A stretch of DNA of 10,742 bases, from NCBI GenBank assembly GCA_021204545.1, contig JAJPZF010000137.1:1-10742 (forward strand). The letters are read 5' to 3'. This DNA is from Prevotellaceae bacterium (GTDB lineage Bacteria; Bacteroidota; Bacteroidia; Bacteroidales; Bacteroidaceae). The notes beneath the pieces were generated by a model that did no database searches, had not been told where the DNA came from, and was given only the letters and a program-made list of their open reading frames with translations. How positions within the stretch are numbered: the first letter of the stretch is position 1; every line of letters starts with the position of its first letter. Positions 1,341 through 5,972 of this stretch are shown here, piece after piece. A program made the translations under genes and the position numbers.

Positions 1341-1452
1341 ATTCGCCCGGTATTAATTGCTTGTCAGTGTTTACTTCTTGTTTGGCTGCCAGGAGGCTCG
1401 GAGGGTGGACAACAAAAAAACGTGGACCAATAACTTCGTCTACGCTTTCAGA

Positions 1453-1551
1453 GGTATCGCCAAACACTATGTATCCCTTAACAAGTAAATCCCCACGCTG
1501 CGCGCGTGAGTATTAACTTTCACTCTTGGATACTTCGTGAATTGGAGATTT
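1453..1551 (-). promoter_or_regulatory. Structured 5' leader RNA candidate, copy A
   Basis: On the minus strand GTATCC (1528-1533) pairs with GGATAC (complement of 1471-1476), enclosing a CACGC/GCGTG hairpin with a 5-base loop (1494-1508) and a GAGT/ACTC pairing. An outer pairing seen in copy B (ATCTCCAA with TTGGAGAT) has one mismatch here because the site reads ATCGCCAA at 1456-1463. Seven A residues (1414-1420) next to CGTGG give a CCACG-U7 tract on the RNA further downstream. It sits in the leader of the BspA stub. Confidence 0.5.
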
Positions 1552-1645
1552 CAAGGAAGCAAGAATTAAGCTAACGCCTTCCGTTCAGATGTCCTTTTCG
1601 TGCTATGCTACATAGGCTTTCTGTGTTTTGCGGTCTTCGTCGTTG

Positions 1646-2994: not shown

Positions 2995-5193
2995 TCATCT
3001 CACCAGCACCTTCTTCACCGTGCCGTCGCTCTCTCGGATGATGTTCACGCCCCTTTGCGGTGCGCTCAACTGCTTGCCGTCGATAGAGTATCGGGTAGCG
3101 ATCTTCTCGCCGTCGGCCGCCGAGGCCGCAGTGATGCCCGTTGTTTCCTCCACGGTGAGGAACTCTTGCCACGTGTCCGCCTTGGCGTAGGCTTCGCGGG
3201 CGCCTTCAGGCACGATGAGCTTGCAGGCTTTCGTGTCGACATGCAGGAACACGTTGTCCTGGCACACGGGCGGAGCCGCGTTGAGCGAGGTCACGCTTGT
3301 CAGGTTCTGGCAATACTCAAAGGCGCTGGAGCCTATCGACGCAAGCCCGCTGCCCAGCGACACGCTGGTGAGGGAGTCGCAGTAATAGAACGCGGCCGCC
3401 CCGATACTCTGGACCGAGTTGGGGATGCTCACTGCCGGGAGGCTTGTGCAATACTCGAACGCCTGGTCGCCTATGCTCGTGACAGAGCCGGGGATGGTGA
3501 CGCTCGTCATGCCGCTACAATAGAGGAACGTGCGCGGCCCTATGCTCGTGACGGAGCCGGGAATCGCGATGGAGCCCAGGCCACTGCACATATAGAACGC
3601 CGCGTCGCCTATCTCCTCGACGGAGCTGGGCAGTGTCAACTCCGTGAGACCGCTGCATTCCTGGAACGCCGCCTCGCCGATGCTCTTCACGGAACTGGGG
3701 ATCGTGACCGAGGAAAGCTGCGTGCAGCCGCAGAAAGCGTTGCTCCCTATGCTCACGACAGCGTCGGGGATGTTGACGGTTGCGAGCGTGTCGCAGAAGT
3801 AGAACGCATAGTCGCCTATGCTGGTAACGGAGCTGGGGACCGTCACCTTCCCAAGGTCGCCGCAATAGGCAAAGGTGTAAGGCTCTATGCTCTCAATGGA
3901 GCTGGGGAGCGTCAACTCGGCGAGGCTCGTGCAGTAGCAGAACGCATACGCGCCCAGCTTCAAAAGCGAGTTGGGCAGCGACACTTCCTTCAGCGCGGAG
4001 CATTGCCTGAAGGCGGCGTCGCCTATGCTCAGGACTGAGCTGGGGACAGTCAGGGAGGTCAGGGCCTCGCAGCTGCGGAACGCCTCCTCGCCGATTGTCG
4101 TCACCGAGCCGGGGATGCTGACGGACGCGAGCTGGCAGCAGAAGTCGAACGCGCCGTGACCGATCTCCGTGACGGAGCTTGGGATGCTTATCTCCGTGAC
4201 ACTGCTACAGAGGTTGAGCAAGGAATCGGCGACAACTGTCACGCCCTCGGGGATGGCAAACGACTGCAGGCTGCCGCAGCCGCGGAAGGCGGCGGCCTCC
4301 AGGCTCGTGACGGTGCTGGGGATGCTCACCGTCTTCAGGCCCGTGCAGAAGCTGAAAGCGTAGCGGCCCACGGAGGTGACAGAGCCAGGGAGCGTCATCT
4401 TTGTAAGGCTGTCGCAATAGTCAAAGGCGTAAGGCGCTATGCTCTCGATGGTTTCGGGTATCTCGTACGTGCTGATGTCCGTCTTCGCCGAGGGCACCTT
4501 GATGAGCTCCGTCATCCCCAGGTTGTACAGCACGCTGTCCTCGCCCGAGTAATAGCATTCGTTCTCCTCGTCCACAGCGATCGTCTTCAGGCCGGTGCAC
4601 TTCCTGAAGGCGCCCACGCCGATGCTCGTCACCGAGGCCGGAATGAACAGCGAGTCGAGCTGCGCGCAGCTCTCGAAGGCGTAGTCCTTTATCTCCGTCA
4701 CTGTCGAGGCTACATGGTAGCTCCCCAGCGCGGTGATGGCGGAGGGCACCTTTATCAGCGTGGTCGTGTCAGCGTCGAAGAGTATGCCGTCGACAGCGCA
4801 GAAGTTCGTGTTTCCCTCCTCAACGCTGATGGTTTGCAACGCTGTGCAGAACCTGAACGCTTTGTCGCTGACGCTTCTCACCGTGCTTGGTATCGTCACG
4901 CTGGTAAGGTTCGTGCAGCGCAGGAAAGCGTACTCGCCGATGCCCGTCACCGTGTAAGTGATGCCATCGTAAGCCACCGACGAGGGGATGGTAAGGTTGC
5001 CGGAGTAAGCGTACTGGTTGGCAGTGGAGTTGAGGCTCTCAAACGCGAGGTAGGTCACCTCGGCTGTCCTGGCGTCCCTGTTGAGGTTGTAGCAGATACT
5101 GTCTTTACCTTCGACGCTGATCTTGGCGTCGTAGGCCAGGCAGCGTGCTTGCGTCGTGAGTGCCGCGAGGCACAGGAATAAGGCTTTCTTCAT
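2995..5193 (-). CDS. BspA-type leucine-rich-repeat surface protein
   Basis: A secreted protein of 732 residues when started at the Met of MKKALFLCLAALTTQARC (5191-5193), a good signal peptide. A longer in-frame opening from 5328 exists but would bury that peptide and is not preserved in the sister copy. A short N-terminal region is followed by about 21 LRR_5 (BspA-type) repeats, mostly 23 residues, of the form SIGDYAFYFCDTLATVNIP with a near-invariant AFxxC core. Early repeats are interrupted by DGILFDADTTTLIKVPS-like and similar segments. The tail (SIDGKQLSAPQRGVNII to KKVLVR) resembles C-terminal sequences of Prevotella surface proteins and may be a type IX secretion sorting signal; that is inference. 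BspA proteins are known for binding host matrix proteins or other bacteria. It is a monocistronic unit with its own promoter, long leader and terminator. Confidence 0.9.
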   Translation of the reverse strand: MKKALFLCLAALTTQARCLAYDAKISVEGKDSICYNLNRDARTAEVTYLAFESLNSTANQYAYSGNLTIPSSVAYDGITYTVTGIGEYAFLRCTNLTSVTIPSTVRSVSDKAFRFCTALQTISVEEGNTNFCAVDGILFDADTTTLIKVPSAITALGSYHVASTVTEIKDYAFESCAQLDSLFIPASVTSIGVGAFRKCTGLKTIAVDEENECYYSGEDSVLYNLGMTELIKVPSAKTDISTYEIPETIESIAPYAFDYCDSLTKMTLPGSVTSVGRYAFSFCTGLKTVSIPSTVTSLEAAAFRGCGSLQSFAIPEGVTVVADSLLNLCSSVTEISIPSSVTEIGHGAFDFCCQLASVSIPGSVTTIGEEAFRSCEALTSLTVPSSVLSIGDAAFRQCSALKEVSLPNSLLKLGAYAFCYCTSLAELTLPSSIESIEPYTFAYCGDLGKVTVPSSVTSIGDYAFYFCDTLATVNIPDAVVSIGSNAFCGCTQLSSVTIPSSVKSIGEAAFQECSGLTELTLPSSVEEIGDAAFYMCSGLGSIAIPGSVTSIGPRTFLYCSGMTSVTIPGSVTSIGDQAFEYCTSLPAVSIPNSVQSIGAAAFYYCDSLTSVSLGSGLASIGSSAFEYCQNLTSVTSLNAAPPVCQDNVFLHVDTKACKLIVPEGAREAYAKADTWQEFLTVEETTGITAASAADGEKIATRYSIDGKQLSAPQRGVNIIRESDGTVKKVLVR

Positions 5194-5310
5194 GATCTTG
5201 TTGTTAGGTGTTAATTGTTTATGAGTGTTTGCATCGTGCTGAGCAGCCCGGAGGCTCGGTTGTGGGACAATAAAAAAACGTGGACCAATAACTTCGTCTA
5301 CGCTTCCTTC

Positions 5311-5408
5311 GGTATCTCCAAACACCATGTATCCATAAACAAGTAAAAGCCCACGCTGCGCGCGTGAGTATTAACTTTCACTCTTGGATACTTCGAGAAT
5401 TGGAGATT
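5311..5408 (-). promoter_or_regulatory. Structured 5' leader RNA candidate, copy B
   Basis: On the minus strand three nested elements can be drawn. An outer stem is ATCTCCAA with TTGGAGAT (at 5400-5407 and 5314-5321). A middle stem is GTATCCA with TGGATAC (5385-5391 and 5329-5335). Inside are a CACGC-loop-GCGTG hairpin (5352-5366) and a GAGT/ACTC pairing. An alternative hairpin GGTGT-TTGGAG-ATACC competes with the outer stem. About 40 nt further the RNA has CCACG followed by seven U (complement of 5272-5283), which could pair with the CGTGG of the inner hairpin. This resembles an attenuator layout, but is unproven. I do not recognise it as a named riboswitch class. Confidence 0.5.
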
Positions 5409-5503
5409 TCAAGGAAGCAAGAACTAAGCTAACGCCTTCTTTTCAGATGTCCTTTCCGTGCTATTCTACATAGGCTTTCGGTTTTTCGCGTTTATCATCG
5501 CCG

Positions 5504-5546
5504 CAAATATAGGCATTATCCGTGAACCATAGCGCGTTAACCACAA
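5504..5546 (-). promoter_or_regulatory. Shared promoter motif, copy 3 (intact BspA gene)
   Basis: Minus-strand TATATTTG (5504-5511), GATAATGCC beside it, and GTTAAC (5536-5541) at the same offset as in copies 1 and 2. It predicts a leader of about 300 nt before the ATG at 5193. Confidence 0.65.
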
Positions 5547-5888: not shown

Positions 5889-5972
5889 AAAGCTAATTAG
5901 ATGTCGGCAAAAACCTAATTAGGTTTTGCCGGAAACCTAATTAGGTTTTGGTGAAAAGGTAGTTAGGTTTTT
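5889..5972. repeat. Four 22-bp units centred on AAACCTAATTAGGTTT
   Basis: Palindrome centres lie at 5896.5, 5918.5, 5940.5 and 5962.5, exactly 22 bp apart. The two middle units carry the perfect 16-bp palindrome AAACCTAATTAGGTTT (5911-5926 and 5933-5948). The first keeps CTAATTAG, and the last keeps only the right half. The period equals about two helical turns, which fits cooperative protein binding on one face of the DNA. It lies 140-220 bp upstream of the HU gene. Confidence 0.85.

Follow-up and report, generated by a model that had tools for sequence, protein, structure and literature searches.

A recurrent leader RNA of Bacteroidota with two mutually exclusive pairing states, probably a transcription attenuator

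The leader and its second copy in the window

The window, by which we mean the whole stretch of 10,742 nucleotides analysed here, carries on its minus strand a gene for a BspA-type leucine-rich repeat protein (2995..5193; LRR_5, E 3.8e-147). A leader of about 305 nt on the same strand runs from a promoter box TATATTTG at 5504..5511, which fits TAnnTTTG and which we take to be the Bacteroidota -7 box, to the ATG at 5193. This leader contains an RNA of about 190 nt that is recurrent and not unique to the window. The stretch 5258-5500 has a computed folding energy of -73.7 kcal/mol (z = -4.25), and 0 of 200 shuffled sequences were equally stable. The first-pass annotation of this DNA had described a long structured leader, and we confirm that the observation is real. 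Every stem and hairpin it named, and CCACG followed by seven T, was found on the minus strand, with the CACGC/GCGTG hairpin at 5349-5369 and GGTGT...ATACC at 5311-5326. To it we add how broadly the family is distributed, a pseudoknot, a second helix of the OFF state, a tiny 5'-terminal ORF and signs of decay in the second copy.

All parts of the leader lie on the minus strand. A tiny upstream ORF, AUG-UAG in a CCTATG context, occupies 5466..5471. Helix P1 joins GGACA (5448..5452) to TGTCC (5265-5269) and shows A-U/G-C exchanges among relatives. It is followed by the P2 hairpin AAGGC-GTTA-GCTT (5426..5438), whose loop GTTA (5430-5433) forms a predicted pseudoknot with the bulge TAAT of P6 (5370-5373). 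P3 has the 5' strand TTCTTGCTTCC (5413..5423) and two 3' partners, GGAAGC (5302-5307) and GAA (5293-5295). P4 pairs ATCTCCAA (5400..5407) with TTGGAGAT (5314-5321), P5 pairs GTATCC (5386..5391) with GGATAC (5329-5334), and P6a pairs GAGTGAAA (5376..5383) with TTTTACTT (5341-5348). Double-sided changes were found in 8/8 pairs of P4 and 6/6 pairs of P5, and P3 and P6a also covary. The top hairpin P6b consists of segment A, ACTCACGC (5362..5369), and segment B, GCGTGGGC (5349..5356), which form 7 of 8 pairs in the window.

Segment B is common to two exclusive pairings, since it is also complementary to segment C, GGTCCACG (5279..5286), with 10/10 pairs in an extended register. Segment C lies directly before a U7 tract at 5272..5278, the proposed point of termination. 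Two further elements belong to this alternative state. The hairpin P4b, GGTG-TTTGGAGA-TACC (5311..5326), holds the 3' strand of P4 inside its loop, and the T2 strand CGTAGACGAAGT (5291..5302) is complementary to ACTTGTTTATG (5334-5344) and would extend B:C in the OFF state. Past the U-tract lies segment D, GGGCTG (5244..5249), complementary to the GGTCC of C, with a C:D helix that we scored at the level of groups. A reading of GTGTTTGGCGATACC as conserved coding sequence (VFGDT in copy 1) was rejected since a one-base difference between the copies, in the 3' strand of P3, shifts the frame.

A second copy of the RNA lies at 1404..1597 on the minus strand, with its tiny ORF at 1608-1613 and its U7 tract at 1414-1420. 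Nearly all elements were said to be kept in 1340-1653. Identity to copy 1 is indeed 87%, but P3, P4 and B each carry an uncompensated change (P4 ATCTCC against GGCGAT, P3 GCTTCC against GAAAGC, B = GCGTGGGG). B:C retains 8/10 pairs in copy 2 compared with 10/10 in copy 1, and copy 2 is the sole sequence of 90 in which the best partner of B outside the hairpin is other than C. The ORF behind it is a remnant of 76 aa, for which Pfam gave no match. Since P3, P4 and B changed without compensation and no recognisable gene follows, copy 2 looks degenerate and appears to be a decaying copy. Its decay is a small natural experiment that agrees with a two-state model.

Other repeats occur in the window. 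A 33-nt palindrome, GCCGC[CT]CCC...GGG[AG]GCGGC, is present three times (1030-1062, 1739-1771 and 2904-2936), and the repeat is reminiscent of an intergenic terminator or an extragenic palindrome. Two of the three copies are followed by CATCATA..TATGATG. The palindrome hairpin is also seen upstream of the leader in locus L003. Two CCTAATTAGG palindromes (5914-5923 and 5936-5945) are intergenic between the leader and an HU-HIG gene.

Covariation of the fold and the shared strand

We aligned 34 leaders with MAFFT, without fitting them to the structure, and scored nine helices in that alignment, the pseudoknot included. Base pairs were found in 93.0% of cells compared with 34-48% when the helices were slid, a gap that is partly by construction since the structure was drawn from the same 34 sequences. 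Double-sided changes occurred in 18/52 pairs, and 0/500 shuffles reached the observed values on four measures, while 1/500 did so on a fifth. In 91 diverse sequences, aligned with covariance model R1 and hence biased towards the structure, 93.5% of cells were paired compared with 34-40% when slid, and 46/48 pairs showed double-sided changes. P4 is nearly constant in the family of the window and freely rewritten elsewhere, and P3 and P5 are likewise rewritten. P1 is not universal since about 81-85% of its cells are paired. In the 34-leader alignment the pseudoknot was paired in 94.9% of cells, with a double-sided change in 1/4 pairs and one-sided changes in 3/4. Covariation across homologous leaders had been proposed by the first-pass annotation as a check, and strong covariation in both the 34 leaders and the 91 sequences backs the fold.

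The columns of C were never modelled as pairing with B. We scored every stretch outside the top hairpin as a partner for B in three sets of RNAs (A5, A6 and the distant set A7; A5 excludes locus L047, set aside beforehand). C was the best outside partner in 89/90, 71/76 and 26/31 sequences, or 89/90, 66/71 and 23/28 distinct RNAs; it was not the best in 11 of 189 distinct RNAs. In two alignments the B:C helix was paired in 91.5% and 94.9% of cells, compared with 36-57% and 21-70% when slid. The margin over column shuffles was modest (91.5% against 90.4% and 94.9% against 93.1%). Shuffles matched the number of double-change pairs in 6/500 and 88/500 cases and, for further pair types, in 69/500 and 18/500; this modest margin reflects how constant the letters of B:C are. 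The pair at the last base of B was unpaired in 42/87 rows of A5.

More distant relatives spell the switch in other letters. A, B and C are jointly rewritten, with the U-tract retained, in L079, L226, L227, L230 and L237, and the order around genome G700 spells all three differently yet mutually fitting. L079 has B ACGGGGUGUUCC and C GGAACACCC-U5, and L226 has B GGGGGCGUUUUC and C GGAAAUGCCC-U8. We also exchanged B and C between 14 divergent RNAs and 76 common sequences. The own partner was clearly preferred in four (L077, L079, L098 and L103), with no equal partner found for L079, L098 and L103 and hardly ever one for L077; the other 10 showed little or no clear difference. An attenuator-like switch between CGTGG and CCACG had been suggested earlier, and the survival of B:C complementarity through this rewriting supports it. 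Conservation of both pairing sets is the signature that a bistable RNA would be expected to leave.

The remaining elements of the alternative state were scored separately. T2 strands paired with their own partners at energies of -4.58, -5.28 and -4.62 in three sets, compared with -3.18, -3.74 and -3.17 for swapped and -2.96, -3.20 and -2.56 for shuffled partners. Among 91 rows the first two pairs of P4b are G-C in 84 and 85, and the third is U-A in 65 and C-G in 5, the rest being gapped or unpaired. P4b sits within the loop of B:C, a stem that encloses 62 nt in copy 1. A U-tract directly follows the stem in 86/90 sequences by a U-count rule, 3 more are weak (L077, L078 and L087) and 1 does not qualify; some tracts are interrupted (TTCTTTT). 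The C:D helix shows up as a trend at group level in A5 and A6 and is absent in A7. P2 might form a third alternative helix with A: the best complement of A fell within P2 in 47/90, 45/65 and 11/31 sequences where about 9-14% was expected, a result confounded by the neighbouring pseudoknot.

For copy 1 the computed energy of the ON fold is -63.5 compared with -45.2 for nested B:C, or about -56.7 if B:C is kept together with P3-P6a and the loop cost is ignored. Since these energies favour A:B in isolation, the OFF state would need a signal or other help, or the kinetics of folding.

Promoters, downstream genes and distribution

A TAnnTTTG box lies no more than 110 nt upstream in 110/164 leaders. 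The corresponding controls were 9/156 in an interval 300 nt further upstream and 16 on the opposite strand over the same span. Where enough DNA was available (A5 and A6), an ORF of at least 80 aa starts within 450 nt in 146/161 leaders, at a median distance of 53 nt (A5) and 48 nt (A6); in 63/146 the distance is 40-59 nt. Signal-peptide-like starts were found in 112/146 downstream ORFs and 45/227 upstream-side ORFs. The call is a home-made rule, the control is crude (the longest upstream-side ORFs, some of them not genes), and a few loci count twice. In a distant group (L080, L081, L083, L085, L086, L088, L094, L099 and L105) the ORF lies about 190-370 nt downstream, which favours transcriptional over translational control. 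In L080, L081, L085, L086, L088, L094 and L105 this ORF is TonB-dependent-receptor-like and the RNA core is directly adjoined by a TTTGCG box, which leaves the group little room for a tiny ORF.

Pfam comparison of 104 of the 173 listed ORFs gave 63 families, with LRR_5 foremost (19/104), and that of 44 other ORFs gave 31 families, with TonB plug domains in 11/44 and one ECF sigma factor. A common pathway, a trait typical of genes under a riboswitch, was not found by Pfam among these 104 and 44 proteins.

The genome to which the window belongs (1.6 Mb, 292 contigs, 65% complete) holds eight strong copies and one weak copy. By translation, the strong copies precede four LRR-type genes, two of which were confirmed by Pfam, a lipoprotein, another secreted protein, a remnant and a contig end. 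With one of these leaders as query, blastn gave matches in 93/301 genomes of the family, scoring two candidates in each. Model R1, which derives from 34 leaders, matched 107/295 genomes of the order and 30/296 of the phylum (eight candidates per genome). A second model, R2, built from 91 sequences, matched 29/123 genomes from a different order within the phylum (20 candidates per genome) and 24/39 relatives, with a maximum of 13 copies per genome. These draws share a few genomes, and the own genome is in all of them except the 123-genome draw. A pattern scan of named genomes gave at least 118 stretches, and of 80 loci tested from it 76 contained the RNA according to R2. Among the matches listed are Paraprevotella clara, Bacteroides timonensis, Butyricimonas synergistica, Parabacteroides distasonis, Flavobacterium segetis and Winogradskyella haliclonae; many named carriers are gut or rumen genomes. 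Cultured carriers in which R2 confirmed the RNA include Hoylesella loescheii (L131) besides Paraprevotella clara (L109), Parabacteroides distasonis An863 (L176), Butyricimonas synergistica (L120) and Flavobacterium segetis (L143). The RNA family extends to other orders and classes of Bacteroidota.

Some matches stand apart from these. Locus L157, on a contig labelled as a Planctomycetota MAG, has a copy by the search pattern, but is without an R2 listing at E<=1e-6. Eleven viral contigs matched a sequence pattern, at the level of the pattern only, and one leader gave no phage or plasmid match at E<=1e-5. L047 (1501-1723; C6:1738-1960 of the own genome) is a weak homologue, with 40 bits under R1, and its top hairpin carries a large insertion. 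By eye it precedes a 72-aa HTH-like ORF; an ORF of 68 aa with a similar look follows the RNA in L052, which belongs to another family.

The RNA had been said to fit no recognised riboswitch class. This was borne out, as Rfam 15 gave no match overlapping the RNA at E<=1 in the window and 60 related loci, with a few matches elsewhere in the loci. Two of these are DUF805 RNA (RF03081) in L066, at 1716-1781 and 2680-2748. This is the one locus in which that RNA stands beside ours, as a separate 68-nt element with no overlap, the first of the two matches being 30 nt downstream. No description of the RNA was found in the passages of the literature searched; a piece of it could be among the 3161 candidates of PMC8040213 or the motifs without an Rfam number in PMC2864571. 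The GUCCY-hairpin motif, reported in Bacteroidetes and Proteobacteria and without an Rfam number in the table of PMC2864571, recalls by its name the conserved GUCC here, a comparison of name and table entry only.

The tiny ORF and a two-state model

At the level of sequence comparison, both pairing sets, their mutual exclusion, their position before genes and their breadth are established. We propose, with a probability of roughly 0.78, that the leader works in cis as a two-state RNA, a transcription attenuator for the downstream gene. In the ON state P1-P6 would form one long arm, the P2 loop would dock onto the P6 bulge, and A would hold B in the top hairpin so that RNA polymerase crosses the U-tract; in Bacteroidales-type leaders D could then capture C. 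In the OFF state B:C with its T2 extension, and with P4b in the loop, would form a terminator-like stem directly before U7, and transcription would end ahead of the coding region. We infer that the OFF state is termination and that a cellular signal, be it a ligand, a protein or the state of a ribosome, sets the balance.

As in transcription attenuators and transcriptional riboswitches, two exclusive helices have one arm in common, and one of the two is a terminator-like stem with a U-tract directly behind it, between promoter and gene. Unlike in those systems, arm B here is part of the folded domain itself, in its apical hairpin, with the 62 nt of copy 1 enclosed, so that B:C would be a pseudoknot to the rest or the whole arm must open. 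The ordered segments A, B, C and D, with A:B and B:C pairing, C:D pairing in Bacteroidales-type leaders and a small ORF ahead, resemble trp-type attenuation. The U-tract follows C here and not D.

The small ORF is itself unusual. The motif CC[TA]ATG lies upstream of the core in 66/162 distinct leaders, and in 66/66 of these an in-frame stop follows within three codons. The bare AUG-UAA/UAG accounts for 28, one codon intervenes in 29 and two in 9, and UAA, UAG and UGA are all represented. Out-of-frame stop counts for the same leaders are 5 and 23. Early in-frame stops follow 83/775 control ATGs elsewhere in the same loci and 42/395 first ATGs after other TAnnTTTG boxes. The pattern was noticed in the first set of leaders; in the second set alone it holds in 36/36, with five of the 76 cores of that set repeating earlier ones. 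A constant frame despite varying spacing and a varying stop codon is hard to explain unless the ORF is translated. With 0 to 2 sense codons of varied identity after the AUG, the 66 ORFs do not have the regulatory codons of a leader-peptide attenuator and, unlike those of trp-type attenuation, are unable to count amino acids.

These ORFs make it possible, though uncertain, that ribosomes on the 5' AUG-stop ORF set the choice between ON and OFF, with translation status (initiation, termination or recycling capacity) as the signal. Consistent with this, the start of the model is preceded at 10-24 nt by the start codon in 101 of 115 such short ORFs, a gap from the tiny ORF to P1 that is about one ribosome footprint. 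Against it, CC[TA]ATG is missing from 96/162 leaders. Of those 96, 34 have some ATG at -32..-8, with an in-frame stop in 29 of the 34, and 62, many from distant groups, have none. In A7 short ORFs are at chance (3/29 leaders; 0.27 per ATG compared with 0.26 in shuffled sequence) while the switch is kept, which argues that the tiny ORF is not the sole input. The tiny ORF might equally serve to protect a long 5' end that is not translated. A bare AUG-stop in a 5' leader is also known from the minimal uORF of Arabidopsis NIP5;1, where AUGUAA is a ribosome stalling site (PMC11915504); that case concerns control of eukaryotic mRNA decay, whereas here the leader is bacterial and joined to a two-state, terminator-like RNA.

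An orphan class of small-molecule riboswitch is likewise possible, though uncertain. The size of the RNA, its pseudoknot, its nearly invariant stretches and its exclusive expression platform would suit one, and many copies before surface genes resemble riboswitches for signalling nucleotides. Unlike transcriptional riboswitches, this RNA has no known ligand, and 63 Pfam families among 104 downstream proteins, with no common pathway, suggest none. Control by a protein is unlikely. An RNA-binding protein or NusG-like antiterminator that reads the leader would fit many unrelated targets of one trans factor, and UpxY NusG paralogs control Bacteroides capsule operons via long leaders; the B:C switch, though, needs no protein. 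We consider it improbable that the terminated leader works in trans as a small RNA. A product of about 230 nt ending at U7 would resemble a 5'-derived sRNA, and PMC7366714 reports 21 UTR-derived sRNA candidates in B. thetaiotaomicron, but an ORF follows in 146/161 leaders and the switch elements are conserved. A dispersed DNA repeat, mobile or extragenic, rather than an RNA would account for several copies per genome adjoining unrelated genes, but is very improbable given the directional placement (promoter box, RNA, ORF), the tolerance of G-U, the compensatory pairs and, for the one leader compared, the lack of a plasmid or phage match.

Within the preferred reading, an attenuator for the downstream gene, we tentatively suggest that a ribosome that starts at the AUG of the start-stop ORF, and reaches its stop immediately or one or two codons later, decides beside the RNA core between A:B and B:C, so that a global translation signal steers a scattered regulon. 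As part of the same tentative proposal, this regulon would comprise surface and accessory genes of Bacteroidales, and the two-state RNA beneath it would be older and phylum-wide. A direct and cheap test of start-stop ribosomes as bacterial sensors is available in the AUG-stop ORFs. The RNA itself is large and strongly covarying, has as many as 13 copies in a single genome of Bacteroidota and is without an overlapping match in Rfam 15. If our reading is true, one kind of RNA switch would govern genes for BspA-like proteins, lipoproteins, outer-membrane proteins and TonB receptors.
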